DNA from: Pseudomonas cavernae
GTDB lineage: Bacteria > Pseudomonadota > Gammaproteobacteria > Pseudomonadales > Pseudomonadaceae
Assembly (NCBI RefSeq): GCF_003595175.1
Contig: NZ_CP032419.1
Span: 1,116,001-1,180,000, forward strand
Direction of reading: 5' to 3'
DNA length: 64,000 nucleotides
A model generated the notes under the pieces. That model worked only from the letters and a program-made list of their open reading frames with translations, made no database searches and had not been told where the DNA came from. Of the stretch, positions 18,609-60,999 are shown one piece after another. Position 1 is the stretch's first letter. Every line of letters starts with the position of its first letter. Both the position numbers and the translations under genes were made by a program.

Positions 18609-18752
18609 GAGAACCTGTTCAGGATCTCGCGAGCTAAGGCCAGACAAGGCGAAAATGGCTGAGGAAGCGGAGTTTACGAGTTGTAAATGAGCATTCCGAA
18701 GCCATTTTCAACGCCGTATGGCCGACGCGCAGCAGATCGTGGATAGGTTCTC
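18609..18752. repeat. Family A long palindrome, copy A1
   Basis: 144-bp imperfect palindrome from GAGAACCTGTTCAGGATCT to GATCGTGGATAGGTTCTC. It contains the core TTTACGAGTTGTAAA and flanking arms GGCGAAAATGGCT... and ...GCCATTTTCAACGCC. It is in inverted orientation relative to copies A2, A4 and A5. It occupies the LysR/cidA divergent promoter region. Confidence 0.85.
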
Positions 18753-18777
18753 GCCAGTTGCATCGAGGATTGCCGCC

Positions 18778-19161
18778 ATGTACCGAGTTTCCCTGCGCTT
18801 CACCCGTCTGTGCCTGGAACTGGCCGTGCTGATCGGCCTGTACGGTCTCGGCACGCTGCTGGCCGGCTGGCTGGGCTGGCCGATTCCCGGCGGGGTGATC
18901 GGCCTGGCGTTGCTGTTGCTGGCCTTTGCCAGCGGCTGGCTGAAGCCGGCGGCGCTAAAGCTGGGGGCCGGCCTGCTGCTGGCTGAAATGCTGCTGTTCT
19001 TCATCCCGGCGCTGATGAGCCTGCTCGACTACGGCAGCCTGGTGCGCCAGGACGGCTGGCGGATTCTGCTGGTGATCGGCGTCAGCACCCTGCTGGTGAT
19101 GCTCAGCACGGCGCTGGCGGTGGAGTGGGTGTGTCGCTGGAGGGCGCGTCATGACTGTTGA
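18778..19161 (+). CDS. CidA/LrgA-family holin-like protein
   Basis: A 127-residue inner-membrane protein with four predicted helices (about 13-31, 38-58, 66-84, 94-116). The conserved signature GWLGWPIPGGVIGLALLLLAF and FFIPALMSLLDY identify the CidA/LrgA family, which modulates murein hydrolase activity and, in more recent work on LrgAB/CidAB, export of small organic acids. ATG 18778 follows GAGG. An open frame continues upstream into the A1 repeat but is not coding. It overlaps the next gene by 11 bp. Confidence 0.92.
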   Translation: MYRVSLRFTRLCLELAVLIGLYGLGTLLAGWLGWPIPGGVIGLALLLLAFASGWLKPAALKLGAGLLLAEMLLFFIPALMSLLDYGSLVRQDGWRILLVIGVSTLLVMLSTALAVEWVCRWRARHDC

Positions 19162-19837
19162 GTTGCAGGCCTGGTTGTGGCTGGCGCTGACCCTCGGCGT
19201 GTATGTCCTCAGTCGCTGGCTGTACCGGCGCAGCGGCCGCTACCTGCTGTCGCCGCTGCTGCTGGTGCCGGCCGTGTTGCTGGCCGTGGCGCTGCCGCTG
19301 CACACCCGCTACGCCGAGTATTCCGCCCTGACCCATTGGCTGATGGCACTGCTCGGCCCGGCCACCGTGGCCTTTGCCGTGCCGATCTGGCAGCAGCGCG
19401 CGATGCTCGCCCGCCATTGGCCGGCGCTGCTGGCCGGCATGCTGGTCGGCAGCACGGTGGCGATGGCCAGCTCCTGGGGCCTGGCCAATGCGCTGGCGCT
19501 GGATCAGCAGGTGCAGCTGTCGTTGCTGCCGCGCTCGATCAGCACGCCGTTCGCCATGCCGCTGGCCGCCGATCTCGGCGGCGTGCCGGGGCTGACCGCG
19601 GTGTTCGTGCTGGTCACCGGGGTGTTCGGTGCCGCCGCCGGTGGCCTGCTGCTCAAGTGGCTGCCGCTGAAGAGCAGCCTGGCCCGCGGCGCGCTGTTCG
19701 GCGTCGGCGCGCATGCTGCAGGCGCCAGCCGCGCCAGCGAGATCGGCCGCGAGGAGGGCTCGGTGGCCGGTCTGGTGATGGTCCTGATGGGCCTGCTCAA
19801 TCTGTTCGCCGCGCCGTTGCTCAGCCACCTGCTGTGA
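19151..19837 (+). CDS. CidB/LrgB-family membrane protein
   Basis: A 228-residue partner of the CidA/LrgA protein. Family features: SPLLLVPAVLLAVALPL, LLGPATVAFAVPIWQQ, LLPRSISTPFAMPLA and GVGAHAAGASRASEIG with EEGSVAGL. About seven membrane segments. The 11-bp overlap with the upstream gene indicates coupled translation of the complex. Regulation by the divergent LysR is probable. Confidence 0.93.
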   Translation: MTVELQAWLWLALTLGVYVLSRWLYRRSGRYLLSPLLLVPAVLLAVALPLHTRYAEYSALTHWLMALLGPATVAFAVPIWQQRAMLARHWPALLAGMLVGSTVAMASSWGLANALALDQQVQLSLLPRSISTPFAMPLAADLGGVPGLTAVFVLVTGVFGAAAGGLLLKWLPLKSSLARGALFGVGAHAAGASRASEIGREEGSVAGLVMVLMGLLNLFAAPLLSHLL

Positions 19838-19930
19838 CCCGCTCGGCCAGCAAGCTGGCCGCCAAGGCGACTACCGCAGTCCGCCACCCTCGCTAGACTC
19901 AACGGGCACACCCACAACTACAACATCGAG

Positions 19931-20722
19931 GTGAATGCCGTGACCGCTGCTCATGCTCTGCCCGTCGCCAACGTCAAGGACCAAGTGTCCGCCGCCGAAT
20001 GGCAGACCCGTGTCGACCTCGCCGCCTGCTACCGGCTGATCGCCCTGCATGGCTGGGACGACCTGATCTTCACCCACATCTCGGCGAAGATCCCCGGCAC
20101 CGAGGAGTTCCTGATCAACCCGTTCGGGATGATGTTCCATGAGATCACCGCGTCCAGCCTGATCAAGATCGACCTGGCCGGCAACAAGCTGATGGACAGC
20201 CCGTTCAACATCAACCCGGCCGGCTACACCATTCACAGCGCCGTGCACGAGGTGCGCCACGAAGTGGCCTGTGTGGTGCACATCCACACCGCCGCCGGCA
20301 TCGCCGTGTCGGCGCAGAAGCAGGGCCTGCTGCCGCTGTCGCAGCAGTCGTTGTTCGTGCTCTCCAGCCTGGCTTATCACGGCTACGAGGGGGTGGCGCT
20401 GCACCACGAGGAGAAGGCCCGGCTGCAGGCTGACCTGGGCGCGGCCAACTTCATGATCCTGCCCAACCACGGCCTGCTCACCGCGGCCAACAGCATCGCC
20501 GACGCCTTCCTGATGATGTTCACCCTGCAGCGCGCCTGCGAGATCCAGGTGATGGCGCAGAGCGGCGGCGCCGAGCTGATCCACATCCCGCAGCAGATCC
20601 TCGATGGCGCCAAGGCTATGGCGGCCGGGGTGACCGGAAGCAAACAGGGCATGGGCGGCGCGCTGGCCTGGCCGGCGCTGCTTCGCAAGCTCGATCAGCA
20701 GATGCCCGGCTACGCCGAGTGA
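19931..20722 (+). CDS. Class II aldolase/adducin-family protein
   Basis: A 263-residue zinc-dependent aldolase-fold protein. The metal-binding pattern is visible: VHIHTAAGIAVSA (HxH) and PNHGLLT, plus HGWDDLIFTHISAKIP and NPFGMMFHEI. Closest in style to the adducin-like proteins of fatty acid or aromatic pathways rather than fuculose aldolase, and the catalytic Glu is not evident, so the reaction is unknown. The GTG start 19931 follows GAG. It ends with a GTGA overlap to the next gene, so the pair forms an operon. Confidence 0.88.
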   Translation: MNAVTAAHALPVANVKDQVSAAEWQTRVDLAACYRLIALHGWDDLIFTHISAKIPGTEEFLINPFGMMFHEITASSLIKIDLAGNKLMDSPFNINPAGYTIHSAVHEVRHEVACVVHIHTAAGIAVSAQKQGLLPLSQQSLFVLSSLAYHGYEGVALHHEEKARLQADLGAANFMILPNHGLLTAANSIADAFLMMFTLQRACEIQVMAQSGGAELIHIPQQILDGAKAMAAGVTGSKQGMGGALAWPALLRKLDQQMPGYAE

Positions 20723-21618
20723 AACTGCCCGGCATCGCCCTGGCCGATTGGCGCGCCCAGGGTCAGAGCTTCAGCTACCAGGGCCATGCCATCCGCTACT
20801 GGACGGCGGGCGAGGGCGCGCCGCTGCTGCTGCTCCACGGTTTTCCCACCGCCAGTTGGGACTGGCACTACCTGTGGGCACCGCTGGCGGCGCGCTACCG
20901 GCTGATCGCCTGCGACATGCTCGGCTTCGGCGACTCGGCCAAGCCGCGCGGCCATGACTACCGCCTGCTCGAGCAGGCGGATATCCAGCAGGCCTTGCTG
21001 CAGCACCTCGGCGTCGAGCAGCCGGTGCACGTGCTGGCCCACGATTACGGCGACAGCGTCGCCCAGGAACTGCTGGCGCGCCACGAGGACGGCCACTTCG
21101 CCATGGCCAGCTGCGTGTTCCTCAACGGCGGGCTGTTCCCCGAGACCCACCGGCCGGCGCTGATCCAGAAGCTGTTACTGAGTCCGTTCGGCGCCCTGGT
21201 CGGTCGGCGATTCAACCGGCGCAAACTGGCCGCCAACTTCGCCCGGATCTTCGGTCCCGAGACCCAGCCTGCGGAAAGCGAAGTGGACGATTTCTGGCGC
21301 CTGATCACCCAGAACGACGGGCAAGGGGTGATGCACCGGCTGATCCGCTACCTGCCCGAGCGCGCTCAGCAGCGCGAGCGCTGGCTGGTGGCGATGCAGC
21401 GCACGCAAGTGCCGCTGCGGGTGATCGACGGTGCGGTCGACCCGATTTCCGGGGTGCACATGGTGGCGCGCTATCGCGAGCTGATCGCGGACGCCGACAC
21501 CGTGCTGCTCGACGACATCGGCCATTACCCGCAGGTCGAGGCGCCGGAGCGGGTGCTCAAGCATTACCTGGAGTTTCGCGCGCGGATCGCCAAGCGCACG
21601 GCGGTGATAGATACCTAG
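20719..21618 (+). CDS. Alpha/beta-hydrolase resembling MEST/epoxide hydrolase
   Basis: A 299-residue alpha/beta-hydrolase starting at GTG 20719, overlapping the aldolase stop. The nucleophile elbow is AHDYG, with D109 as nucleophile, so it belongs with epoxide hydrolases and haloalkane dehalogenases rather than serine esterases. The oxyanion motif HGFPTASWDW and C-terminal DDIGHYPQVEAPE (catalytic His) are intact. Segments HDYGDSVAQELL and LNGGLFPETHRP closely recall, from memory, the vertebrate imprinted protein MEST, so it is a bacterial member of that branch. Substrate unknown. Confidence 0.88.
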   Translation: MKLPGIALADWRAQGQSFSYQGHAIRYWTAGEGAPLLLLHGFPTASWDWHYLWAPLAARYRLIACDMLGFGDSAKPRGHDYRLLEQADIQQALLQHLGVEQPVHVLAHDYGDSVAQELLARHEDGHFAMASCVFLNGGLFPETHRPALIQKLLLSPFGALVGRRFNRRKLAANFARIFGPETQPAESEVDDFWRLITQNDGQGVMHRLIRYLPERAQQRERWLVAMQRTQVPLRVIDGAVDPISGVHMVARYRELIADADTVLLDDIGHYPQVEAPERVLKHYLEFRARIAKRTAVIDT

Positions 21619-21787
21619 GGTGGAAAACCGCGGAGCGTTTTCCACCACCAGCCGGTGGATGTGAAAAGCGACATCCACCCTACGGACTGACAGGCGAACT
21701 CCGTAGGATGGGTTGAGCAACGCGATACCCATCTTGCCGACGGACCACCGCGCGTTGGGTATCGCTGCGCTCAACGCTAACCTACGA
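21617..21787. repeat. Composite of two intergenic hairpin repeats
   Basis: The first unit (about 21617-21684) is GTGGAAAACCGCGGAGCGTTTTCCAC followed by GGTGGATGTGAAAAGCGACATCCACC. The second (about 21702-21787) is GTAGGATGGGTTGAGC ... GATACCCATC ... GGGTATCGCTGCGCTCAAC ... CCTACG. The same two units in the same order occur at 58088-58265. They fill most of the 297-bp gap before the SDR gene. Confidence 0.7.
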
Positions 21788-21915
21788 AAGGCAGCGGCGT
21801 TGCCCTGTATCGCCGCACCTTATCGACCTTTATTCAGCAGCCACCCGGTTGCTTGTGGACCTGCCGGAGCAAGCCGACACTTGGCCTTTTACCAACCTGC
21901 CCAGGAGTTCGCCTT

Positions 21916-22833
21916 ATGAGTGATGCCATCCGTTTTGAAGACCAGGTCGTCATCGTCACCGGCGCCGGTGGTGGCCTCGGCCGCGCCCATGCGCTGCTGT
22001 TCGCCAAACATGGCGCCAAGGTGGTGGTCAACGACCTCGGTGGCAGCACCCATGGCGAAGGCGCCAACGCCTCGGCGGCCGACCGCGTGGTGGCGGAGAT
22101 CCGCGAAGCCGGCGGCACCGCGGTGGCCAACCATGACTCGGTGACCGACGGCGACAAGATTGTGCAGAACGCCCTGGACGCCTTCGGCCGCGTCGATGTG
22201 GTGGTCAACAACGCCGGCATCCTGCGCGACAAGACCTTCGCCAAGATGGAAGACGCCGACTGGGACCTGGTCTACAAGGTCCATGTCGAAGGCGCCTACA
22301 AGGTCACCCACGCCGCCTGGCCGCACCTGCGCGAGCAGAACTTCGGCCGCGTCATCTTCACCGCGTCGACCTCCGGCATCTACGGCAACTTCGGCCAGTC
22401 CAACTACGGCATGGCCAAGCTCGGCCTGTACGGCCTGACCCGCACCCTGGCCATCGAAGGCCGCAAGAACAACATCTTGGTCAACGCCATCGCCCCCACC
22501 GGCGGCACCCGCATGACCGAAGGGCTTATCCCGCCGGCGGTGTTCGAGCAGCTCAAGCCAGAACTGATCAGCCCGCTGGTGGTGTACCTCGGCAGCGCCG
22601 CCTGCGAAGAAACCGGCGGCCTGTTCGAAGTCGGCGGCGGCTGGGTCGGCAAGGTGCGCTGGGAGCGTAGCAACGGCGTCGGCTTCAACCCGCTGCAGGG
22701 TTTCAGCCCGGAGGACGTGGCCGCCAGCTGGGCGCAGATCGGCGACTTCGCCGGCGCCAGCCACCCCGCCGACACCAGCCAGGCGCTGGGCGCGATGCTC
22801 GCCAACCTGCAGAAGTACGTGAAGCTCGGCTGA
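21916..22833 (+). CDS. SDR-family 3-hydroxyacyl-CoA dehydrogenase-like protein
   Basis: A 305-residue short-chain dehydrogenase. It has TGAGGGLGRAHALLFAKHGA, VVVNDLGGS, NNAGILRDKTFAKM, SGIYGNFGQSNYGMAKLGL (catalytic Ser, Tyr, Lys) and RKNNILVNAIAP. This pattern closely matches the dehydrogenase domain of peroxisomal multifunctional enzyme 2 (HSD17B4), so a (3R)-hydroxyacyl-CoA or steroid-like substrate is plausible. ATG 21916 follows AGGAG. An enoyl-CoA hydratase-family gene follows after a terminator, consistent with acyl-CoA metabolism. Confidence 0.9.
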   Translation: MSDAIRFEDQVVIVTGAGGGLGRAHALLFAKHGAKVVVNDLGGSTHGEGANASAADRVVAEIREAGGTAVANHDSVTDGDKIVQNALDAFGRVDVVVNNAGILRDKTFAKMEDADWDLVYKVHVEGAYKVTHAAWPHLREQNFGRVIFTASTSGIYGNFGQSNYGMAKLGLYGLTRTLAIEGRKNNILVNAIAPTGGTRMTEGLIPPAVFEQLKPELISPLVVYLGSAACEETGGLFEVGGGWVGKVRWERSNGVGFNPLQGFSPEDVAASWAQIGDFAGASHPADTSQALGAMLANLQKYVKLG

Positions 22834-22851
22834 TCCTTCGGCGTGCTTCCG

Positions 22852-22884
22852 AAAGGCCGGCTCTTTAGTCGGCCTTTTTGTTTT
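22852..22884 (+). terminator. Terminator after the SDR gene
   Basis: AAAGGCCG (22852-22859) pairs with CGGCCTTT (22870-22877), followed by TTGTTTT. It lies 19 bp after the stop and ends 33 bp before the next gene. Confidence 0.85.
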
Positions 22885-22916
22885 ATGGTGCGGGCAAAAC
22901 CGCCAGGAGAGTCGCC

Positions 22917-23687
22917 ATGAGCGTGATCATCGAGAAGAACGGCCCGGTCACCACCCTGATCATCGACCGGCCGCAGGTACGCAACGCCGTCGACCGGCCG
23001 ACCGCCGAGGCGCTGGCCGCGGCCCTGCGCGCCTTCGAGGCGGACGCCGAGGCGCGGGTGGCGGTGCTCACCGGTGCCGGCGGCAGCTTCTGCGCCGGCG
23101 CCGACCTCGGCGCGGTGGCGGCCGACGCCACTCGCGCCAATCGCCTCGAGGCCGACGGCGACGGGCCGATGGGGCCGAGCCGCATGCAGCTGAGCAAGCC
23201 GCTGATCGCCGCCGTCGAAGGCCATGCAGTGGCCGGCGGCCTGGAGCTGGCGTTGCTCGCCGACCTGCGGGTGATGGCCGCGGATGCGGTGCTCGGGGTG
23301 TTCTGCCGGCGCTTCGGCGTGCCGCTGATCGACGGCGGCACCGTGCGCCTGCCGCGCATCGTCGGCCAAAGTCGGGCGCTCGACCTGATCCTCACCGGCC
23401 GCCCGGTGCAGGCCGAGGAGGCGCTGGCCATCGGCCTGGTCAACCGGGTGGTGGCGCCGGGCACGGCGCGCGCGGCGGCCGAGCAGCTGGCGCGGGAGAT
23501 CGCCGCCTTCCCGCAGCGCTGCCTGCTGGCCGACCGCGCCAGTGCCTATAAACAGTGGGAGTTGCCGTTCGCGCAGGCGCTGGCCCATGAATTCCAGGGT
23601 GGCCTGGCGGTGATCGAAAGTGGCGAGACCCAGGCCGGTGCCCAGCGTTTCAAGGGCGGAGAGGGGCGGCACGGCCGCTTTGAGTGA
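22917..23687 (+). CDS. Enoyl-CoA hydratase/isomerase family protein
   Basis: A 256-residue crotonase. Visible features: GSFCAGADLGAV (oxyanion loop), KPLIAAVEGHAVAGGLELALLADLRVMAADAVLGVFCRRFGVPLIDGGTVRLPRIVGQSRALDLILTG-type core, in which the second catalytic region reads FGVPLIDGG, without the usual Glu pair of hydratases. This suggests an isomerase, hydrolase or other crotonase reaction rather than a simple enoyl-CoA hydratase. ATG 22917 follows CAGGAG. Its stop codon TGA is immediately adjacent to repeat A2. Confidence 0.88.
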   Translation: MSVIIEKNGPVTTLIIDRPQVRNAVDRPTAEALAAALRAFEADAEARVAVLTGAGGSFCAGADLGAVAADATRANRLEADGDGPMGPSRMQLSKPLIAAVEGHAVAGGLELALLADLRVMAADAVLGVFCRRFGVPLIDGGTVRLPRIVGQSRALDLILTGRPVQAEEALAIGLVNRVVAPGTARAAAEQLAREIAAFPQRCLLADRASAYKQWELPFAQALAHEFQGGLAVIESGETQAGAQRFKGGEGRHGRFE

Positions 23688-23942
23688 GAGCCTGTTCACG
23701 ATCTGCTGCGCGTCGGCCATACGGCGTTAAAAATGGCCTCGGCAAGCCGCTTGCGGCTAACGCGCTTTAGCGCGGCCCCGAAGGGGCGAGCGAAGCGAGT
23801 CATGCTCATTTACAGCTCGTAAACTCCGCTCCCTCGGCCATTTGACTCGCTACGCTCGCCCTTCGGGCCAGCCTTCGGCTGCTACTCCCGTTGGTCGTTG
23901 TGCCTTGTCTGGCTCTAGCTCGCGAGATCGTGAACAGGTTCT
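23688..23942. repeat. Family A long palindrome, copy A2 (long form)
   Basis: 255-bp copy starting directly after the TGA of the upstream gene, from GAGCCTGTTCACGATCTGC to GAGATCGTGAACAGGTTCT. Both arms carry an extra module: GGCCCCGAAGGGGCGAGCG on the left and CGCTCGCCCTTCGGGCCAG on the right are complementary, so the long form remains a palindrome. The centre is TTTACAGCTCGTAAA. Confidence 0.88.
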
Positions 23943-23949
23943 GAGGTCG

Positions 23950-24157
23950 CGCCGTAGGATGGGTTGAGGAGCGCAGCGACGATACCCATCGAGCCGATGC
24001 CGATGGATATTGCTTCGCCCAACCCATCCTAGGGTGCTGTGAGTGAGGGCGCGGTGGCCTGCGCTGTTTGCCATGGCGCTCGTTGGGTATCGCTCCGCTC
24101 AACACCAACCTACGGCGCGGTGCTGCTCATCTCCGGAGGATGGGTTGAGCAATGCGC
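23950..24157. repeat. GTAGGATGGGTTGAG-type repeats, two to three units
   Basis: CGTAGGATGGGTTGAGGAGCG with CCCAACCCATCCTAGG (23951-24031), then GGGTATCGCTCCGCTCAAC ... CCTACGG (24085-24115) and AGGATGGGTTGAGCAATGCG (24137-24157). These are degenerate members of the GATACCCATC family. The rest of the stretch to 24420 shows no gene. Confidence 0.6.
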
Positions 24158-24427
24158 TACCCATCACCCTGCGTGCTATTTGCCTGTACCAAGACCCGCC
24201 ACACCCGCGCCTCACTTCATAAGCCCTTCCATCACGTCCGCCAGCGCATTGCCAGGCGGCGGCGCCGATCCGCCTGCGGCTTTCTGCCGTCTGAGCGGCG
24301 GGGCGGTAACAGGCTAAGGCATGCCCCTCGGGGTTGAGTGGAAACTTCCCAGATTTCGGCCCAAGCCGCCGCGAAGGGTGGCGGCACGGATGAAAAACGC
24401 GGGCGTTGATCCTTTCGAGCGACACGG

Positions 24428-24478
24428 AAAAATCCGCCATTGGTGCGCTTATCCCACTCTGGCGCTCTGGGTAGGGTG
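24428..24478 (+). promoter_or_regulatory. Conserved upstream block of DUF1302 gene, copy 1
   Basis: AAAATCC, GCGCTTATCC (24445-24454) and CTGGGTAGGGTG (24467-24478) recur with the same order and spacing at 30740-30788. The conservation of spacing across a gene duplication marks this as a promoter or activator site, most likely for the adjacent MalT-like LuxR proteins. Confidence 0.6.
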
Positions 24479-24511
24479 CTATCGCAGTTTGACCCTTTCA
24501 TGGAGTGCCGT

Positions 24512-26341: not shown

Positions 26342-26360
26342 GGTCAGGGAGAACAATCAG

Positions 26361-27734: not shown

Positions 27735-27750
27735 AGGGTTGAGGGGTTCG

Positions 27751-27782
27751 AAAAAGGCGACCGCAAGGTCGCCTTTTTTATT
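27751..27782 (+). terminator. Terminator after DUF1329 copy 1
   Basis: AAAAAGGCGACC (27751-27762), loop GCAA, GGTCGCCTTTTT (27767-27778) with trailing T's. A near-identical terminator follows the second DUF1329 copy, so it was duplicated with the module. Confidence 0.92.
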
Positions 27783-27876
27783 TCTGGATATTCATGGCAC
27801 CAAGGTTGAGGCGGCGGGTCGGCGCTCTGTGGTTAACATGACGAACCGCTGGAATAACAACAAGAGAGTGCATGCG

Positions 27877-42994: not shown

Positions 42995-43027
42995 CTGTTT
43001 CTCCTAGTGTGTGGGCTGCGCGCCGCG

Positions 43028-43249
43028 CGATCTTTTCGATCGGTGCGGGCGGTGTTTGGAGACCACCTGGGCCATCAGGCGTTAAACACTGCCTCGGAGG
43101 CCGCTTGCGGCTAACGCCTTTCAGTACGGCCCCGAAGCCATGCTCATAACCACGCGTAAACTGCGCTTCCTCGCCCGATTGACGAGCTACGCCCGCCCGG
43201 CGAGTCGGCCTACGGTTGACCCTGGCTCGCAGGATAGTGAACAGGCGCT
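43028..43249. repeat. Family A-related palindrome, degenerate copy A3
   Basis: Recognisable pieces in the right order: GCCATCAGGCGTTAAA, GGCCGCTTGCGGCTAACGCC, GGCCCCGAAG, TGCTCATAACCACGCGTAAA, GACGAGCTACGCCCGCC, and a terminal GTGAACAGGCGCT. It is a decayed long form. It explains about half of the 450-bp space between the GMC and regulator genes; nothing else is visible in that space. Confidence 0.6.
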
Positions 43250-45696: not shown

Positions 45697-45841
45697 TAGA
45701 TTCTGTACGGAAACTGCCTGCGCTCGGTGATGCTGCGTTAAAAAGTGGCTCGGAATGCTCATTTACAGCTCGTAAACTCCGCTTCCTCGCCACTTTTTGC
45801 CTTGCCTGACCTTCGCTCGGCGACTTTTCGTACAGAACCTA
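45697..45841. repeat. Family B long palindrome, copy B1 (short form)
   Basis: 145 bp from TAGATTCTGTACGGAAACT to TTTCGTACAGAACCTA, with the centre TTTACAGCTCGTAAA and arms TTAAAAAGTGGCTCGG and CCTCGCCACTTTTTGCC. Ends begin and finish with TA. Confidence 0.88.
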
Positions 45842-46443: not shown

Positions 46444-46652
46444 TAGGTTCTGTACGAAAACTGCCTGCGGGCTTCGCGCGTGATGCTGCGTTAAAAAGTG
46501 GCTCGGAAAGCGGCTCACCGCTAACGCACTTTAGTGCGGCCCCGAAGGGGCGAGCGAAGCGAGTACTGCTCATTTACAACTCGTAAACTCCGCGTCCTCG
46601 CCACTTTTTGCCTTGCCTGACCTTCGCTCGGCGACTTTTCGTACAGAACCTA
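46444..46652. repeat. Family B long palindrome, copy B2 (long form)
   Basis: 209 bp from TAGGTTCTGTACGAAAACT to CGTACAGAACCTA. The left arm contains the extra module GCTAACGCACTTTAGTGCGG CCCCGAAGGGGCGAGCG; the right arm lacks its complement, so the copy is asymmetric. The last three bases (CTA) are the stop codon of the minus-strand DUF3509 gene. Confidence 0.88.
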
Positions 46653-49357: not shown

Positions 49358-49654
49358 GAGCCTGTCGCGGATCTGCTGCGCGTCGGCCATACGGCGTTAA
49401 AAATGGCGATGTCCCAGTTCCGTGTCGCCTGGGGTGGTGCTTTTGGTAGGAGCGGATTTATCCGCGAACCAGGGATAAGGGCGGTGCCAAGCCTTTCGCG
49501 AATGAATTCGCTCCTACAGGTGCGGCATGGGCTGACAGCCCGCAGGGCAGGGGATGCTGCACCGCGGATTGCATCCGCGCTACGACATCTCCAACCCATA
49601 ACTCGGACATAGCGTTAAAAATGGCTCGAGCTCGCGAGATCCGCGACAGCCGCT
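49358..49654. repeat. Family A long palindrome, copy A4, interrupted by other repeats
   Basis: The left half (GAGCCTGTCGCGGATCTGC, TACGGCGTTAAAAATGGC to about 49408) and the right end (CGAGATCCGCGACAGCCGCT) match family A, with the changed TIR bases CGCGG/CCGCG compensated on both sides. Between them lie a REP pair and a GCGGATTGCATCCGC repeat instead of the usual core, so a secondary insertion replaced the centre. The copy starts right after the receptor stop codon. Confidence 0.75.
49446..49517. repeat. Pseudomonas REP pair nested in A4
   Basis: GTAGGAGCGGATTTATCCGCG and its inverted partner CGCGAATGAATTCGCTCCTAC about 30 bp apart are the classical GTAGGAGCGA-type REP pair (BIME) of Pseudomonas. 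Confidence 0.85.
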
Positions 49655-51828: not shown

Positions 51829-52017
51829 AGCCCCAGTGGGTACCCACAAATGGGGCAATTGCCGCTGCGTTGCGCCGTCGTTGTTCGTCGGCGGGCGGCG
51901 CTGGCTGTTGCTCGGGCCTTGCCCTAGAAGGCTGCCGACCGTTGGTCGCGAGCTGGCAGAAGTTGGCCTTGGGCTTGCTCCTCTCTCGATCAGACTCAAC
52001 GCTGCAGGTACATCGTC

Positions 52018-52302: not shown

Positions 52303-52367
52303 GCGGCAGGCCAGGGCTCCCTGATTTTTTGCGCGCGCGGGCTCAGGCTTCGTCGTCGTGGGCAGTT

Positions 52368-52509
52368 AGAGCCTGTTTACGATCTGCTGCGCGTCGGCCA
52401 TACGGCGTTAAAAATGGCCTCGGGATGCTCATTTACAGCTCGTAAACTCCGCTCCCTCGGCCATTTTTGCCTTGTCTGGCTCTAGCTCGCGAGATCGTAA
52501 ACAGACTCT
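52368..52509. repeat. Family A long palindrome, copy A5 (short form)
   Basis: 142 bp from AGAGCCTGTTTACGATCT to AGATCGTAAACAGACTCT, the cleanest short copy. The arms GTTTACGATCT/AGATCGTAAAC carry a T/A pair where A2 has C/G, a compensated difference. The centre is TTTACAGCTCGTAAA. Confidence 0.9.
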
Positions 52510-52580
52510 TGGGCACGGGCGCCAGGAACCGCCGGCGTGCGCTAATGTCTAGGCAGGGTCATCAAACAAGGAGAAACCCT

Positions 52581-53932: not shown

Positions 53933-53940
53933 GGCGTCCC

Positions 53941-54233
53941 TCACCCTAGCCCTCTCCGATGGGAGAGGGGACTGATCGGCGCGGCGTGGCGGTGCAACCC
54001 GCCAGTGCGGGTCTGCGGCAGTCCGTAGGATGGGTTGAGCGTAGCGATACCCATCATTGCGCTTCGATGGGTATCGCAGGCTCAACCCATCCTACAAAGC
54101 AGTCCGTGGCTCGGCACCATTCTCAGGAAACGGTGTAGCCCTGAAAAGGAATAATCCTCGAGCAGCCTTGCGCCCGCTGTAGGGCGGGCGCAACCCGCCA
54201 GTTCCGGCCTGCGACGGGTTGCCCCAGCTACGG
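53941..54233. repeat. Three intergenic repeat units, no gene
   Basis: CCCTCACCCTAGCCCTCTCC...GGGAGAGGGG (53939-53971), GTAGGATGGGTTGAGCGTAGCGATACCCATC with its inverted half GATGGGTATCGCAGGCTCAACCCATCCTAC (54026-54096), and GGGCGCAACCCGCCAG...GACGGGTTGCCC (54186-54226). They fill the convergent space before the ligase gene. Confidence 0.65.
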
Positions 54234-54234
54234 C

Positions 54235-55827
54235 CTAACGAATCGCCGCCTCGGCCGCCAGCTGCTTGCGCAGTTCGGCCTTGGCGATTTTCTCCAGGGT
54301 CACGCGCGGGAAGTCGTCGACGATGCGGATGCCGGCCGGCACCTTGAAGTCGGCCAACTGGCTGCGGCACTGGGCGAACAGGCGCTCGATGAATTCGTCG
54401 TGGCGGTCGGCGTCGATCTCGCTGGCCACGGCGACGAAGGCGTAGGGCACCTCGTCGAGCATGGCGTGGCGCTGGGCCACCACCGCCACCTCGACCACGC
54501 CCGGCACGCCGAGCAGCACGCGCTCGATTTCCGAGGCGGCGACGTTCTCGCCGCCGACCTTGAGCATGTCCTTGTCGCGGTCGGCGAACTTGATCGAGCC
54601 GTCCTCCAGCAGCGTCACCCGGTCGCCGCTGAGGAACCAGCCCTGCGCGTCGAAGCTCGCCGCGGTGGCCGCCGGGTCGTCCAAATATTCCTTGAACAGC
54701 GACACCCCGCGCAGCCCCAGCACCCGCAGGTGGCCGCTGGCGCCGACCTCGACCGGCTGGCCGTCATCGTCGACCACGCAGATCTGGTAGGTGCTGGCGG
54801 CGCGGCCGATGCTCATCTCGGTGTTGGGCAGGCCGGTGAGGCCTATGATCGGGTGCGAGATGGTTTCGGTCATGCCCCACCAGCCGATGGTCTTGATGCC
54901 GAATGGCTGCGCCAGCGCCGGATCGCACATGGCGGTGCCCCACAGCCGGAAGTAATGCCGTTCCGGCTTCGGTTGGGCGAGCAGGGCACGCATGAAGAAG
55001 GGGACGGCCGAATGCCAAGTGCAGCGGTTGCGTACGGCCACGTCCCAGAAGCGGCTGGCGGAGAAGCGCGGCTGCAGCACCAGGGTGCCACCGACCCACA
55101 GCGAGGTGAGGAAGCTGTAGCCCAGCGCGTTGGTGTGAAACAGCGGCATCACCGCGAGGTGGATATCGTCGCTGCGCAGGTCCTGGTGGTAGGCGTTGAC
55201 CCGCGCGGCCCACAGCGCGTTGCCGTGGGTCAGCACCACGCCCTTCGGCCGCGAGGTGGTGCCCGAGGTGTACTGCACATACATCGGCCGCAGCGGATCG
55301 GCGGCCACCCGGCGGCGCTGGGCGGCCGGCTCCGGGGCGAGCAGTTCGGCATAGGGCACCACGCCGCTGGGCAACTCGGCCGGTTCGCCGGCGTTGTGCG
55401 CGGTGCAGGCCAGCCAGCGCAGCTTGTCGCGCACCCGCGCCAGGCTGGCGATCAGGCTCGGCTGGCTGATCGCCACGCGGCAGTCGCTGTGAGTCACGAA
55501 GTAGTGCATCTCCTCGGCCGATGAGCGGGTGTTGGTGTTCACCGCAATCGCGCCCAACTCGCCGCAGGCGGCCCAGGTGAGGAGGAATTCCGGGCAGTTC
55601 TCCAGATGAATCAGCACCCGGTCGCCGCTGCGCACGCCGAGGGCTTCCAGGGCCGCGGCGACCCGTCCGACGGCGTGGTCGAACTGCGCGTAGCTGTAGG
55701 TTTCGGCGGGGCGATCGAAGGGCTCCCAGATCAGCAGCGGTTTGCGGGCGTTGGCTTGGGCCTGGGTCTCCAGCAGCCAGTTGAAGTCTTGGCCGGCGAA
55801 GGGATTGCAGGGTTGATGCGCGGACAT
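54235..55827 (-). CDS. AMP-dependent acyl-CoA synthetase/ligase
   Basis: A 530-residue ANL-superfamily ligase activating a carboxylic acid to acyl-CoA. P-loop YTSGTTSRPKGVVLTH; A5 motif GWWGMTETISHP; LSGDRVTLLEDGSIKFADRDKDMLKVGGENVAASEIE and the C-terminal catalytic lysine in PRVTLEKIAKAELRK (K of the last motif). Resembles crotonobetaine/carnitine-CoA ligase (CaiC-like) and cyclohexanecarboxylate ligases; substrate unknown. ATG 55825-55827 is chosen; an in-frame start 72 bp upstream lacks homologous sequence. No partner acyl-CoA genes are adjacent. Confidence 0.9.
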   Translation of the reverse strand: MSAHQPCNPFAGQDFNWLLETQAQANARKPLLIWEPFDRPAETYSYAQFDHAVGRVAAALEALGVRSGDRVLIHLENCPEFLLTWAACGELGAIAVNTNTRSSAEEMHYFVTHSDCRVAISQPSLIASLARVRDKLRWLACTAHNAGEPAELPSGVVPYAELLAPEPAAQRRRVAADPLRPMYVQYTSGTTSRPKGVVLTHGNALWAARVNAYHQDLRSDDIHLAVMPLFHTNALGYSFLTSLWVGGTLVLQPRFSASRFWDVAVRNRCTWHSAVPFFMRALLAQPKPERHYFRLWGTAMCDPALAQPFGIKTIGWWGMTETISHPIIGLTGLPNTEMSIGRAASTYQICVVDDDGQPVEVGASGHLRVLGLRGVSLFKEYLDDPAATAASFDAQGWFLSGDRVTLLEDGSIKFADRDKDMLKVGGENVAASEIERVLLGVPGVVEVAVVAQRHAMLDEVPYAFVAVASEIDADRHDEFIERLFAQCRSQLADFKVPAGIRIVDDFPRVTLEKIAKAELRKQLAAEAAIR

Positions 55828-55969
55828 GGGGCCTCTCAGTTTGTTGTTTTTGGTGGAGGTGGCCGGATTCTTACACCCGTGCAGGGGGCGGCAATGCAAA
55901 ATTTTGTATCTGCCGGAGGCTTGGCCATTAAGTTGCCAGGCGCCGGCGAGGCCACAGGCTAGAACCCCC

Positions 55970-56148
55970 GTAGGGTGGGTTGGCGGCGCAAGACGCAGGG
56001 TTCAAGGCTGGCAGAGGAAGCCGGGGCGCCGCGTAACCCACCGCACGCAGATGCAGGCCGACACCGCGGTGGGTTACGGCGCATCACTAGCCCACAGACA
56101 TCGAAGCGATATGCCGGGCGCCTAACCCACCCTATGCGCTTCTGCGAG
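55970..56148. repeat. GTAGGGTGGGTTGG...CTAACCCACCCTA repeat
   Basis: GTAGGGTGGGTTGGCG at 55970, GCGTAACCCACCGC near 56033, CGGTGGGTTACGGCG near 56068 and GCGCCTAACCCACCCTATG near 56118: inverted pairs of the same kind as at 12877. No coding gene is visible in 55828-56171. Confidence 0.6.
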
Positions 56149-56171
56149 GGCGAGAGGGGCGGACAGGGCTC

Positions 56172-57047
56172 TCAGCCGCCGAGAGCCGTGCGGTATTCAC
56201 CCGGCGTGGCGCCGAGGGCGGCGCGGAAGCGATTGCTGAAGTGACTGGCGCTGGCGAAGCCGCAGGCCAGGGCGATTTCGCCGAGTGGCAGGCCGGTTTC
56301 GCGCAGTAACTGGCGGGCCCGCGCCAAGCGCCGGGCCAGCAGGTAGCGATGCGGCGGCACGCCGAAGCTTTCGCGGAACATGCGCGCGAAGTGGTATGCG
56401 GACAGCGCCACCAACGCGGCCAGTTCACCGAGGCTGAGTGCTTGGTCGAGGTGCTGTTCGATGTAGTCCTGCAGCAGGCGGCGCTGGTGTGGTGCCAGGC
56501 CGCCCTGCAGACGCAGGCCCTCGCGCCTGCCGACCTGGGTGAGCAGGGTATGGCTGAGCAGCTCGTGGGCCAGGCTGCTGGTCAGCAGGCGCTCGCCCGG
56601 CTCGTGCCAATTCAAGGCGACCAGCTGGCGGAAACGCCGCGCCTGCTGTGGATCGTCGAGGAAGGTGCCTTCCCGCAGCTGCAACTCGCGCGGTTCGCGG
56701 TCGAGCAGTTGCACGGCGCCGAGGGCGAAGCGTTCGGGGCTGATGTACAGGTGCGCCAGGCGGATCTCGCCGTTGATCACCCAGGCCGACTCGTGGCCGG
56801 CCGGGAGGATGCACAGCTTGTCCGGCGCGCCCTTGCTGTCCGGGCGCTCGCGGCGGAAGGTGCCGGTGCCGCCGGCCAGGTAGCAGGACAGCGTGTGCTG
56901 GCTCGGTCCCTGGTACTCGCGGGCGTCGTGATGATTGCTCCACAGCGCCGCGCCGAGGCCGTCGCCCAGCTCGGCGACGGCCTCGAGGCGGGCGTGAGGC
57001 GAGCTGCTGAGCGACTGGAAAACCTGATTTTGTTCGAGTTGCGACAT
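56172..57047 (-). CDS. AraC-family regulator
   Basis: A 291-residue regulator. The C-terminal double HTH (LSLGELAALVALSAYHFARMFRESFGVPPHRYLLARRL, then LPLGEIALACGFASASHFSNRFRAALGATPGEYR) is canonical AraC/XylS; the N-terminal domain (about 1-180) is a divergent cupin-like sensing domain with GEIRLAHLYISPERFALG. ATG 57045-57047 is chosen; a longer frame upstream is possible. It is divergent from the EamA transporter gene (147 bp), which it probably regulates. Confidence 0.88.
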   Translation of the reverse strand: MSQLEQNQVFQSLSSSPHARLEAVAELGDGLGAALWSNHHDAREYQGPSQHTLSCYLAGGTGTFRRERPDSKGAPDKLCILPAGHESAWVINGEIRLAHLYISPERFALGAVQLLDREPRELQLREGTFLDDPQQARRFRQLVALNWHEPGERLLTSSLAHELLSHTLLTQVGRREGLRLQGGLAPHQRRLLQDYIEQHLDQALSLGELAALVALSAYHFARMFRESFGVPPHRYLLARRLARARQLLRETGLPLGEIALACGFASASHFSNRFRAALGATPGEYRTALGG

Positions 57048-57193
57048 GGCCGGAGTCTGCGCCGGAGCTGGGTCACCCATGCTACCGCGCGCGGGGGCGA
57101 GCGCCAGCCCGCCGGGGCAAATAAGCGCAAGTTTATGCAAGTCGGGCCTAAGCGGGTGGCGCAGACTGCCGGTCATCGCTGCCGGAGTCCGCC

Positions 57194-58090
57194 ATGAATC
57201 TCGCCCTGTATTTGCTCACCGTCCTGATCTGGGGCACCACCTGGATCGCCATCAAGCTGCAACTGGAAGTGGTCGCCATTCCGGCGTCCATCGCCTACCG
57301 CTTCGCCCTGGCGGCGCTGCTGCTGTTCGCCGTGCTGCTGGTAAGTCGGCGTTTGCAGAAGCTCGATCTGCGCGGTCAGCTGATCTGTCTGGCCCAGGGC
57401 CTGTGCCTGTTCTGTGTGAACTTCATGTGCTTCTACACCGCCAGCCAGTGGATCCCCAGCGGCCTGATCGCCGTGGTGTTCTCCACCGCCACGCTGTGGA
57501 ACGCGCTGAACGCGCGGGTCTTCTTCAAGCAGCGGATCGCCGCCAACGTGCTCGCCGGCGGCGCGCTGGGGCTGCTCGGCCTGGGCCTGCTGTTCTGGCC
57601 GGAGCTGGCCGGCCACCACGCCAGCCGGGAAACCCTGATCGGCCTGGCCCTGGCGCTGTTCGGCACGCTGTGCTTTTCCGCCGGCAACCTGCTCTCCAGC
57701 CTGCAGCAGAAGGCCGGCCTCAAGCCGCTGACCACCAACGCCTGGGGCATGCTCTATGGCGCGCTGATGCTGGCCGGCTACTGCCTGGTCAGTGGCACGC
57801 CGTTCGCCTTCCAGTGGAGCACAGGCTACGTCGGCTCGCTGCTGTACCTGGCGATCCCCGGCTCGGTGATCGGCTTCACCGCCTACCTGACCCTGGTCGG
57901 ACGCCTGGGTCCGGAGCGCGCGGCCTATTGCACGGTGCTGTTCCCGGTGGTGGCGCTGAACATCTCGGCCTTGGTCGAGGGCTACCAGTGGACGGCGCCG
58001 GCGCTGCTCGGGCTGGTACTGGTGATGCTCGGCAACGTGCTGGTGTTTCGTAAGCCCAAGGCGGCGACCCCGGTGCCGAAGCTGGCGTAG
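57194..58090 (+). CDS. EamA/DMT-family transporter
   Basis: A 298-residue inner-membrane transporter with ten predicted helices in two EamA repeats. Repeat 1 has LLTVLIWGTTWIAIKLQL and YRFALAALLLFAVLL; repeat 2 has LGMLYGALMLAGYCLVSG, SLLYLAIPGSVIGFTAYLTLVGRLGPERAAYCTVLFPVVALNISALVEGYQWTAPALLGLVLVMLGNVLV. Probably an exporter of amino acids or metabolites, controlled by the divergent AraC regulator. Substrate unknown. Confidence 0.9.
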   Translation: MNLALYLLTVLIWGTTWIAIKLQLEVVAIPASIAYRFALAALLLFAVLLVSRRLQKLDLRGQLICLAQGLCLFCVNFMCFYTASQWIPSGLIAVVFSTATLWNALNARVFFKQRIAANVLAGGALGLLGLGLLFWPELAGHHASRETLIGLALALFGTLCFSAGNLLSSLQQKAGLKPLTTNAWGMLYGALMLAGYCLVSGTPFAFQWSTGYVGSLLYLAIPGSVIGFTAYLTLVGRLGPERAAYCTVLFPVVALNISALVEGYQWTAPALLGLVLVMLGNVLVFRKPKAATPVPKLA

Positions 58091-58265
58091 GGTGGAAAAC
58101 CGCGAAGCGTTTTCCACCACCAGTGGGTGGATGTGAAAAACGACATCCACCCTACGAGAAGCGGCGCCACACCTGCGGGTCGCATGTAACACGTAGGATG
58201 GGTTGAGCGCAGCGATACCCATCAATAACGGCCCGCGTGGGTATCGCTGCGCTTAACCCACCCTA
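58088..58265. repeat. Composite of two intergenic hairpin repeats, second copy
   Basis: GTAGGGTGGAAAACCGCGAAGCGTTTTCCACC, then GTGGGTGGATGTGAAAAACGACATCCACCCTAC, then GTAGGATGGGTTGAGCGCAGCGATACCCATC and GTGGGTATCGCTGCGCTTAACCCACCCTAC. Same two units in the same order as at 21617-21787. They fill the 192-bp gap. Confidence 0.75.
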
Positions 58266-58282
58266 CATTAGCCGGCGGCTGT

Positions 58283-59260
58283 TCAGACCCCGCGCCACAC
58301 CTGCGGATTGACCAGATCGCGCGGGCGCTCGCCGGCCAGTGCGGCGAGCAGGTTGTCCACGGCGCGGTCGGCCATCGCCTGACGGGTTTCGTGGGTGGCC
58401 GAGCCGATGTGCGGCAGGGTCACCACCTGGCCCATGGCGAACAGCGGCGAATCGCGCAGCGGTTCCTGCTCGTAGACATCCAGCCCGGCGCCGCGAATCC
58501 GCCCCTGCTGCAGGGCCTCGATCAGCGCCGCCTCGTCGAGCACCGCGCCGCGGGCGATGTTGACCAGGATCGCTCCTGGCTTCATCAGCGCCAGTTCGCG
58601 GCGGCCGATCAGCTGGCGGGTCTGCGCGCTCAGCGGCACCACTATGCAGACGAAGTCGGCCTCGGCCAGCAACGCGTCGAGGCCGCGGTACTGCGCGCCG
58701 AGTTCCTGCTCCAGCGCCGGCTTGCGGCTGTTGCCGCTGTACAGCACCGGCATGTTGAAGCCGAAACGGCCGCGCCGGGCGATGGCCGCGCCGATGTTGC
58801 CGAGGCCGATGATGCCCAGGGTCTTGCCATGCACGTCGCAGCCGAACAGGCTTGGGTCGACCGTGCGCTGCCACTGGCCGGCCTTGGTCCAGGCATCCAG
58901 CTCGGCGACCCGCCGGGCGGCGCTCATCAGCAGGGCGAAGCCGAGATCGGCGGTGCTTTCGGTGAGCACGTCCGGGGTGTTGGTCAGCAGGATGCCGCGC
59001 TCGTTCAGGTAATCGAGCTCGTAGTTGTCGTAGCCGACCGAGATGCTCGAGATCACCTGCAGCTGCTCGGCCGCCTGCAAATTAGCCCGCCCCAGACGGC
59101 GACCGACGCCGAGCAGGCCGTGGGCGCGGGGCAGGGCGGCGGCGAACTGGGCCTCGACATCGCCGCCATCGGCGCCCGGCACTATCAGTTCGACATGCGC
59201 CTGCAGACGCTCGATGACCGCCGGATTGAGGCGGCTGAAGGCAAGCACGGTGTTTTTCAT
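58283..59260 (-). CDS. D-isomer 2-hydroxyacid dehydrogenase (GhrB-like)
   Basis: A 325-residue NAD(P)H-dependent reductase for glyoxylate, hydroxypyruvate or 2-ketogluconate. Features: SISVGYDNYELDYLNERGILLTNTPDVLTESTADL, Rossmann motif LGIIGLGNIGAAIARR, catalytic Arg in VNIARGAVLDEAALI, Glu in GLDVYEQEP and His in LPHIGSATHETR. The SVGYDN and R/E/H set are those of GhrB/ketogluconate reductase. ATG 59258-59260 is used; an in-frame GTG two codons upstream is possible. Confidence 0.92.
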   Translation of the reverse strand: MKNTVLAFSRLNPAVIERLQAHVELIVPGADGGDVEAQFAAALPRAHGLLGVGRRLGRANLQAAEQLQVISSISVGYDNYELDYLNERGILLTNTPDVLTESTADLGFALLMSAARRVAELDAWTKAGQWQRTVDPSLFGCDVHGKTLGIIGLGNIGAAIARRGRFGFNMPVLYSGNSRKPALEQELGAQYRGLDALLAEADFVCIVVPLSAQTRQLIGRRELALMKPGAILVNIARGAVLDEAALIEALQQGRIRGAGLDVYEQEPLRDSPLFAMGQVVTLPHIGSATHETRQAMADRAVDNLLAALAGERPRDLVNPQVWRGV

Positions 59261-59373
59261 CGGCACACTCGTAACGGGGAAAACAGGCCCCGCACGTTAG
59301 CATCCCCAGGGTCGCTGCGGAGCGGCGACAACGCTCTAGCGTGCGGTTATCGGCGCATTTCCATGTCGTGCGC

Positions 59374-59760
59374 TCAAGAGCCGAAGCGGGCGAACAGCCG
59401 CGGCGAGAACAGCAGCCACAGGCACAGCGGATACAGCAGGTAATGCAGGCCGAACAGCAGCAGGCCCATCGGGCTGGGGGCGTCCTGCAGGCTCATCATC
59501 ACCAGCAGCCCGAGGTAGAGCAGGCCCAGCCCGCCGCCATAGAGGCCGAGCAGGCGCCAACGCTCGCCCGCCAACGGCGCGCGCTTGACCCGCAGGGCGA
59601 AGCACAGCGCCAGTCCGGCGGCGACCAGCGCGGCGATGCACAGGCTGGCGGCCACCCCACCGAGGCGCACGAAGCTGCGCAGTAGCAGATTGAGCAGCAC
59701 CACCGCGAGCACCCCGGCGAGGGCGTAGTGGCGGATGGCAACGCTAGCGCTGGTGCTCAT
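59374..59760 (-). CDS. Small four-helix membrane protein
   Basis: A 128-residue inner-membrane protein with four hydrophobic segments (about 14-32, 37-57, 70-88, 95-118). No family recognised. Its ATG overlaps the stop of the short upstream frame at 59757 (TGATG), so translation is coupled to that HIT-like fragment. Function unknown. Confidence 0.7.
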   Translation of the reverse strand: MSTSASVAIRHYALAGVLAVVLLNLLLRSFVRLGGVAASLCIAALVAAGLALCFALRVKRAPLAGERWRLLGLYGGGLGLLYLGLLVMMSLQDAPSPMGLLLFGLHYLLYPLCLWLLFSPRLFARFGS

Positions 59761-59885
59761 CGGTGCGGCTCCTGGGTGGCAGTCGGCTGGCTGTCGAGGA
59801 AGGCCGGCACCCGCTCCGACGCGTAGACCCGGTGCGTGGGCACCTGGCCGCTGGCGATGCGGCAGAACCGGTAGGCGGTACTCAT
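59757..59885 (-). pseudogene. N-terminal HIT-domain fragment
   Basis: A 42-codon frame starting MSTAYRFCRIASGQVPTHRV and continuing YASERVPAFLDSQPTATQEPHR. This aligns with the start of HIT-family hydrolases (FCKIIxGExPxxxVYExExxxAFLDxxP), but the catalytic HxHxH segment is absent: the frame ends at the overlap with the membrane gene. It is therefore a truncated relic that may still serve as a translated leader (AGGGA before its ATG). The next 178 bp toward the GST gene contain another open minus-strand fragment I cannot assign. Confidence 0.6.
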
Positions 59886-60063
59886 GGCGTCATTCCCTGA
59901 TCGATGGACAGCCGCCAGCCTAACCCCAGGCGGCGGGCAAGGACAGGCGCAGCGCCAGCCGCTCGCCCAGCCCGGCGGCGGCTGCCTCGGCGAGTATCGC
60001 GGCGAGAAAGGCGGGCGCGAGCGGGACGAAGCCGCCCTGGCGGTACAGCGCCGCGCTCGGCGC

Positions 60064-60717
60064 TCAGTCCCGCGCGGGCGCACCCAGCGGGAACAGCTCG
60101 CGATAGGGCCGGGCCTCGTCCACCGCGCGGGCGAACGAGGGGCGGGCGAGCAGGCGCTGGCGATAGGCACGCAGGTTGGCGAACGCCGTATCGATGGGGC
60201 GCACCCAGTCGGCATAGAACAGCGCCGGCGCGGCGGCGCAGTCGGCGAGGCCGAATGTGTCCCCGGCCGCCCATTCGCGTTCGGCCATGTGCGCGTCGAG
60301 CCAGGCGTACGCGGTGTCGAGCAGCGCACCGGCGTCGGCGACGCCCTGGCGGTCGTGTTGGTCTTCGTCGCGGAAGCTGTCGAACACGAACTTCTGCATC
60401 GGCGTCATCACGTAGTTGTCGAAGAAGCGGTCGAGCAGGCGCACGTCCAGCGCCGCCCGCGGGTCCGCCGGGAGCATGCGCACGGGGCCGGGATGATGGA
60501 GGTCGAGGTACTCGATGATGATGCTCGACTCGGGCACCGTGCGGCCCCGGTCCAGCAGCAGCGGCATACGCTTGAGCGGCCACAACGCGGCGTGCTCGGC
60601 GGCCACGGCCGGGTTGTCTGGACCCAGCTGACAGAGCTCGAATGGCAGCTCGTTTTCGTACAGGGCGATCAGGACTTTCTGGCAGTAGGAGGAAAAGGGA
60701 TGGGCATAGAGTTTCAT
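60064..60717 (-). CDS. Glutathione S-transferase family protein
   Basis: A 217-residue GST. The thioredoxin-like N-domain starts MKLYAHPFSSYCQKVLIALYE (catalytic Ser/Cys region), has MPLLLDRGRTVPESSIIIEYLD (cis-Pro and the ESxxI glutathione-binding motif), and the helical C-domain ends ... GDTFGLADCAAAPALFYADW. Substrate unknown. ATG 60715-60717 has an AGGAGGAAAAGGG site upstream. Nearby VOC and GFA genes also belong to glutathione- or electrophile-related families. Confidence 0.9.
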   Translation of the reverse strand: MKLYAHPFSSYCQKVLIALYENELPFELCQLGPDNPAVAAEHAALWPLKRMPLLLDRGRTVPESSIIIEYLDLHHPGPVRMLPADPRAALDVRLLDRFFDNYVMTPMQKFVFDSFRDEDQHDRQGVADAGALLDTAYAWLDAHMAEREWAAGDTFGLADCAAAPALFYADWVRPIDTAFANLRAYRQRLLARPSFARAVDEARPYRELFPLGAPARD

Positions 60718-60797
60718 GTCGCGTTCATCTCCCAAGTGGTGGCGGCCGGACGACGCCATCTGCGCACGGCCCTGGTGCGAGTGAAGGGCGTGGGCGT

Positions 60798-60999
60798 TAG
60801 GTTCTGTACGAAAACTACCTACGCTCGGTGATGCTGCGTTAAAAACAGGCTCGGACTGCTCATTTACAACTCGTAAACTCCGCGTCCTCGCCATTTGACT
60901 CGCTGCGCTCGCCCTGCGGGCCAGCCTGCGGCTGTTACTCCGCTTCGCTGCGTTGCGCCTTGCCTAACCTTCGCTCGGTGACTTTTCGTACAGAACCTA
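60798..60999. repeat. Family B long palindrome, copy B3 (asymmetric)
   Basis: 202 bp from TAGGTTCTGTACGAAAACT to CGTACAGAACCTA. The left arm is short; the right arm carries GACTCGCTGCGCTCGCCCTGCGGGCCAGCCTGCGGCTG, the mirror of the module seen in the left arm of B2. The terminal CTA is the stop codon of the minus-strand VOC gene. Confidence 0.88.

Follow-up and report, generated by a model that had tools for sequence, protein, structure and literature searches.

Miniature inverted-repeat transposable elements (MITEs) of bacteria are short, possess terminal inverted repeats, leave target duplications, reach high copy numbers and have their ends in common with insertion sequences (IS). Usual MITEs are tied to one transposase family, and the fate of non-autonomous elements in general is regarded as bound to a single transposase. 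The enterobacterial repeats ERIC, RSA and YPAL are intergenic, whole-length palindromes able to form hairpins. The REP sequences and REPINs of pseudomonads are dispersed palindromic repeats mobilised by RAYT; REPs measure 20-30 nt and leave no duplication. The TIMEs of Pseudomonas are non-autonomous and derived from Tn3; their Tn3 ends measure about 38 bp and their duplications 5 bp. Here we describe palindromic repeats dispersed in a stretch of 64,000 nucleotides of Pseudomonas cavernae (contig NZ_CP032419.1, positions 1,116,001 to 1,180,000), referred to as the window. The genome of the window, named G000, is a single contig of 4,949,615 bp.

These repeats are likely non-autonomous palindromic transposable elements, in which one conserved body of about 140 bp carries exchangeable terminal repeats, each about 18 nt long, and would be moved by IS5 and IS1182 transposases. 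They resemble bacterial MITEs in all the features named above, but one body occurs here under four end types matching IS5 or IS1182 elements, and under a fifth for which no partner was found. Similar to ERIC, RSA and YPAL, with which they were compared by description only, they are palindromic over their whole length, intergenic and of similar size. The hosts of those repeats are enterobacteria, whereas a related copy from viral contig L135, the one query used, had no match in a collection of 5,426 E. coli genomes. Unlike REPs and REPINs, the elements have duplications of 2-5 bp and IS5 or IS1182 ends. With TIMEs they share the non-autonomous state and the ends of an autonomous transposon, and by description they are set apart from them by end length and duplication.

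End types, target duplications and partner elements

Copies were chosen by the centre pattern TTTACARCTCGTAAA, searched in the genome at up to three mismatches with the reversed pattern as control, so that copies with a decayed centre were missed. For G000, the first 100 of 151 centre places were analysed, plus some copies found by A-end or similarity searches. The resulting set comprised 261 distinct copies from fetched loci, including 103 from G000. An end type was assigned where both ends fitted one type with at most four mismatches each, and this was the case for 212 copies (A 121, D 44, B 30, C 13 and F 4). The ends of the remaining 49 were not assigned, and any end types rarer than these five are among them. 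Types C and D are also present in G000, and type F was found in relatives. An earlier reading of the window's sequence (the first-pass annotation) had proposed terminal inverted repeats and MITE behaviour, and the 212 copies with the same type at both ends agree with this. As this set was itself selected by matching ends, mixing was counted with each end matched freely: 204 copies had both ends within three mismatches of some type, and none combined two groups. Within the A group, which has three subtypes, the left and right subtypes were equal in 119 of 121 copies. The left and right ends of a type A copy showed 1.36 differences, compared with 3.56 for random partners (0 of 500 permutations as low). 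The end types have parts of a GG.CTGT..GAAAA pattern in common.

The type A site reads C, TNA, element, TNA, G, which corresponds to a target CTNAG with the 3-bp TNA duplicated. The element begins at GA, and the preceding A, which the first-pass annotation had counted into family A, is part of the flanking duplication. An exact 3-bp duplication was present in 79 of the 121 type A copies (68/87 in G000), against 24.1 under shuffled pairing. Type B is flanked by TA, as had been noted in the window, on the left in 24/29 and on the right in 25/29 copies, one plasmid copy being left out. Type D is flanked by YTAR (left 34/44, right 29/44), with an exact 4-bp duplication in 16/44 copies against 5.2 shuffled. 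Among the 13 type C copies, four have a 4-bp and two a 5-bp duplication (0.0 and 0.1 shuffled, respectively), and two of the four type F copies have a 4-bp duplication.

Insertion sequences with these ends were found for types A to D. The search with PF13340 over 43 genomes gave matches in twelve and none in G000. The type A partner is an IS of 841 bp, present in three identical copies in genome G163, with perfect ends GAGCCTGTTCACGATCTTTT and TTA duplicated. The type B partners are elements of about 910 bp in several genomes, with ends GGTTCTGTACGAAAAG (or GGCTCTG..) and TA duplicated. Both transposases are split across two frames, which scored 89.8 and 154.3 bits (A) and 132 and 103.9 bits (B) with the IS5-family model NF033580 (cut-off 110). 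PF01609 had three matches in G000, all within elements with type C ends CAGGCTGTGTGAAAA and, read by eye, 4-bp duplications GACC/GGTC. The one scored belongs to IS1182 (468.6 bits, cut-off 270). Genome G308 harbours C-like elements (L372, L374, L375) whose ends are almost identical to these and whose duplications measure 4 or 5 bp; of these, L372 was also assigned to IS1182 (418.5 bits). The type D partner, an IS of 1331 bp in G308, has ends CAGGCCGTTGAAAAAC with one mismatch between them, CTAG duplicated, and a transposase of the IS5-family model NF033581 (263.9 bits, cut-off 140). Thus, each of the four partners has at least one reading frame above its NCBIfam cut-off. The IS1182 partner of type C was the only one found in G000. 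The first-pass annotation saw no autonomous partner in the window, and in the whole of that genome none was found for A or B.

Judged from these sequences, the ends and duplication sizes of types A, B and D are those of IS5-family elements, and those of type C (13 copies, six with a 4- or 5-bp duplication) are those of an IS1182 element. The IS5-family groups with TNA, TA and YTAR duplications are presumably the ones named IS1031, IS427 and IS5. Since four end types each match a different IS, transposases of at least two families would move the same body. The simplest account would be a non-autonomous palindrome that relies, for movement in trans, on any transposase able to recognise the ends it carries at the time. 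The likeness to the IS5 and IS1182 elements, which have equal terminal repeats and duplication sizes, is limited to the outer 16-20 nt, beyond which the printed ends diverge from the palindromic body. Derivation of the body from the partner insertion sequences was rejected, as the outer 16-20 nt alone match.

The first-pass annotation held that fixation at the same loci in all relatives would speak against mobility. Comparison of the flanks of 258 copies with the collected loci revealed six pairs, at five sites, in which a relative lacks the element. Between L215 and L239, AAGCT occurs twice at the filled site and once at the empty one. For the type B copy L395, the empty site L406 runs through the same TA, the right duplication being eroded, and the pair L275/L204 aligns more loosely (81-84% identity). 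In addition, for four copies within 60 kb of G000, the corresponding place in G163 lacks a centre match. None of the five polymorphic sites is a window copy; no empty site was obtained for the eight copies of the window, where the searched stretch matched relatives at about 70% identity. For a search with the flanks of L243 in the genus of G106, the matches listed were all to the element.

Loci L183:5034, L056, L045 and L077 have type A-like ends on arms of B, C or D form, chimeras that may record end changes. Loci L199, L203, L182 and L255, from Chromohalobacter, Onishia, Pseudomonas and Halomonas, carry further end variants with 2-5 bp matching flanks and no assigned partner.

One palindromic body

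Related repeats are present at all eight window positions listed in the first-pass annotation. Its division into families A and B with common internal arms and an ERIC-like form was confirmed. The copies and the two reading frames that end at them are the following:

18611..18750, minus strand (limits converted by hand): A1, type A, 140 bp; its flanking duplication is eroded and reads CGA/TCA along the strand of the element
22878..23687, plus strand: Enoyl-CoA hydratase/isomerase gene (PF00378); its stop codon, TGA at 23685-23687, doubles as A2's left target duplication
23688..23941, plus strand: A2, type A long form, 254 bp; TGA duplicated on both sides
43025..43249 (approximate limits), plus strand: A3, type A, degenerate
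45699..45839, plus strand: B1, type B, 141 bp; TA on both sides
46446..46650, plus strand: B2, type B, 205 bp, one arm with an insert; TA on both sides
49358..49653, plus strand: A4, type A, ends retained; the middle is about 200 bp of other sequence
52369..52508, plus strand: A5, type A, the 140-bp standard unit; flanks TTA/TTG
60800..60997, plus strand: B3, type B, 198 bp, one arm with an insert; TA on both sides
60997..61416, minus strand: open frame without Pfam match; its stop TAG consists of the TA duplication and the last base of B3

Six of the eight have the exact centre and both ends. The common centre claimed for all copies stands for these six; A3 is a very degenerate copy, and in A4 the middle is replaced. 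Copy A5 is 99% identical to a G000 copy at genome position 4761863. Within the interrupted copy A4, a repeat TAGGAGCGGATTTATCCGCGA at 49447 is one that we take to be REP-like.

The standard unit measures 140 bp in types A, C and D and 141 bp in type B. Assigned copies range from 126 to 281 bp and carry no transposase gene. Cores were compared after roughly 36 nt had been trimmed from the left side and roughly 30 nt from the right side, and the 18-nt left ends were compared ungapped. Cores of different end types differed at 1 of 73 nt between the B copy L043 and the C copies L215 and L239, between L279 (B) and L320 (C), and between L133 (D) and L207 (F), and at 2 of 73 nt between L043 and the A copy L056. 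The 18-nt ends of such near-identical cores differ at 8-10 places. In a poorly resolved tree of 133 interiors, end type had to change ten times, where four is the minimum possible and 53.4 the mean after shuffling. Ten changes against a minimum of four, with types clustered, indicate that end switching is rare, and the changes were probably few but recurrent.

The hairpin was assessed in three ways. Folding against 200 shuffles on both strands gave z-scores of -7.4 and -8.6 for A5 and -6.4 and -6.3 for B1, with no shuffle as good. Ungapped self-complementarity was above the largest of 1000 shuffles in A1, A5 and B1 (0.50-0.57), and at or below the largest shuffle in the long forms A2, B2 and B3 (0.35-0.37), where inserts in an arm break the register. 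The first-pass description of every copy as an imperfect whole-length palindrome is borne out for the former; the latter do not pass the ungapped test. Lastly, an alignment of 69 diverse copies (70 picked, one plasmid copy dropped) yielded 38 predicted pairs, 28 of them with a change on both sides. In this alignment 94.2% of paired cells were complementary, compared with 36-49% when partners were slid by one to three columns. The sequence of the centre and of an unpaired inner loop hardly varies between copies. The covariation of the arms may reflect selection for the hairpin or template switching within the palindrome, and the data fit either. A TyrR-like reading of the centre was dropped, as its half-sites stand in the opposite order to that of the TyrR box.

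Stop codons and competing explanations

Gene calls were made with a home-made codon-bias gene finder. Two of the 101 classified G000 copies overlapped a predicted gene; convergent genes flank 36 of 99 placed copies, and divergent ones flank 10 of the 85 type A copies. The distance from stop codon to element peaks sharply. In type A, the offset was 0 in 51 of 87 G000 copies (51/85 with the two within genes left out); the 34 copies from elsewhere showed it at 17 gene ends. Offset 0 was found in 22/44 type D and 2/13 type C copies. Type B has an offset of -1 in 10/29 copies, in which TA and the element's own G form TAG. That these are natural stops was confirmed in three cases. L256 sits on the TGA where its element-free relative L214 ends the same gene (protein ends GMLNAA and GMLTAA, respectively). 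A type D copy of G163 occupies the TAA at which the same gene ends in G000, there with no element present (LLPLIFAT and LLPLILPA). The frame beside B3 and a G310 homologue of 40% identity, the only one found besides itself among 29 genomes, end at the same codon.

We regard it as an even question whether this placement results from the target motif and the purging of harmful insertions, without any preference for gene ends. Because TNA reads as a stop triplet on one of the two strands for any N, the motif accounts for part of the effect; in addition, 153 of the 214 CTNAG sites counted over the window together with 60 kb fall in predicted coding sequence, which few copies enter. However, non-coding CTNAG sites coincided with a stop codon in 20/61 cases in the window plus 60 kb and in 53/187 cases in relatives, compared with 51/85 for type A copies (odds ratios 3.1, p = 0.0014, and 3.8, p = 1e-6). 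Among positions between convergent genes, 26 of 35 A copies abut a stop codon, against 7 of 12 sites on the first background (p = 0.47), which fits motif and purging, and against 14 of 34 sites in relatives (p = 0.007), which does not; both backgrounds are small and depend on the home-made gene finder.

For the elements themselves, three further explanations were considered. The TA flanks of family B had led the first-pass annotation to IS630/mariner-mobilised MITEs, and TA does stand on both sides of most type B copies. We give this origin almost no credence, as the elements that combine the B repeat with a TA duplication encode an IS5-family transposase (NF033580, 132 bits); the duplications of types A, C and D, of 3, 4-5 and 4 bp, do not fit it either. 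It is also very improbable that several unrelated MITE families converged on a similar body, for example a selected terminator or DNA hairpin. Strong covariation of the arms, stems of A-tracts and T-tracts and the kept structure would suit convergence, but cores that differ across types at one or two of 73 nt, unpaired inner loop included, and the same standard length would not. A body under selection for its function as an RNA or DNA structure (a bidirectional terminator after stops, or a protein-binding centre), with mobile ends secondary, is less far-fetched and still unlikely. An almost invariant centre between covarying stems, copies abutting stop codons and the share between convergent genes point in its direction. 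Nevertheless, a simple terminator scan called none within the four intact copies scanned (A5, B1, B2 and B3), which also argues against a converged terminator; Rfam at the gathering score had no match across the window; type A copies occur between divergent genes; and palindrome-templated repair can yield covariation as well.

Several observations weigh against our preferred reading, a single body moved by IS5 and IS1182 transposases. No transposition was observed, and we infer the action of the transposases in trans. No partner of types A, B or D was found in G000 (PF13340 no match, PF01609 type C elements only) despite its 87 type A copies. The ends of 49 of the 261 copies fit no named type, and at up to four mismatches ends of two groups meet in three of 216 copies, all of which have an end with four mismatches. 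Exact TA duplication of type B was found in 23/30 copies against 20.9 shuffled, where the TA is invariant and shuffling therefore gives the duplication no support, and none of the four type D copies of G000 has an exact duplication. Agreement between left and right ends is weak in types B (2.41 vs 3.06 differences) and D (2.55 vs 2.87; for either type none of 500 permutations was as low). In type C it is not significant (30 of 500 as low). Types C and D have rather similar ends, their closest pair, L066 and L223, being distinguished by two core positions and just 4 of 18 end positions. The interior tree is poorly resolved, with 7 of 127 inner branches starred, and end types show strong clustering in it. 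Since a single alignment served both to predict the pairing structure and to count it, the sliding control favours that structure.

Under the reading of one body with exchangeable ends, each transposase would leave its own duplication, namely 3 bp TNA for A, 2 bp TA for B, 4-5 bp for C and 4 bp YTAR for D. The targets of A, B and D hold a stop triplet, and the duplication, or in B the element's first base, would restore the stop codon. With the stop codon restored, insertions at gene ends would do little harm. Both ends may change together if one palindrome arm templates the repair of the other; after such a change matched pairs alone could move, and transposition would keep them. An alternative route would be stepwise point change toward a new transposase. 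We tentatively propose, at slightly less than even confidence, a palindrome that switches transposase: both ends would be exchanged repeatedly and at once between IS5 and IS1182 through palindrome-templated repair, while the hairpin is kept and targets that restore stops are used, so that the element persists across Pseudomonadaceae and Halomonadaceae. If true, a body that changes its transposase would explain how elements outlive any one IS and spread over whole bacterial families. The cross-type pairs with nearly equal bodies provide a direct way to test the joint change of transposon ends. Placement at stop codons together with their restoration would explain how a genome carries more than 100 copies with few genes broken, and matters for the annotation of gene ends.

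Copy number, host range and other repeats

At up to three mismatches, the centre had 151 matches in the 4.95-Mb genome G000, and the A-end pattern had 79 at up to one mismatch, while the reversed or control patterns had none. A chance origin was ruled out by these reversed-pattern controls, which in the family search also had none among the matches listed. With at most two mismatches, 182 of the 298 family genomes searched (G000 included) have the centre, and 16 of 19 genera are represented. An exact-pattern scan of named genomes revealed at least 120 stretches. Among the 80 titled matches listed, most belong to Pseudomonas, and other hosts were Stutzerimonas, Azotobacter, Halomonas, Salinicola, Chromohalobacter, Onishia and further Gammaproteobacteria. 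Halomonas, Salinicola, Chromohalobacter and Onishia are taken here to belong to the Halomonadaceae. Several genomes of the genus g6 (G005, G047, G106, G120 and others) gave 190-340 first-look candidates each for an element-bearing query, so G000 may not be the richest genome.

Phage records had no match to the one query used. Seven plasmid records matched A5, none across more than 80% of its length. In viral contigs, the centre was present in six, and the A-end pattern without the palindrome in eight. Near these palindrome-free A-ends no opposite matching end was found except in L123, and transposases were not sought there. In L123, at 2164, a pair of type A-like ends separated by 254 bp encloses a different interior and may mark a further miniature element that has these ends.

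The window also possesses other repeats. A second dispersed repeat, TAGGATGGGTTGAGC...GCGATACCCATC, occurs at 21684, 24116, 54006 and 58174 (also at 17607, 23980 and 40758), and in inverted form too. A 69-bp repeat, TAGGGTGGAAAACCGC...CATCCACCCTACG, is present at 21616-21684 and 58088-58156 (94% identical) and adjoins copies of the former. Between 26361 and 35156, a gene pair occurs twice in tandem, first a DUF1329 gene and then one for a LuxR-type regulator that has a MalT-like TPR region; these paralogues lie about 4.65 kb apart, with pieces that are 67-84% identical.

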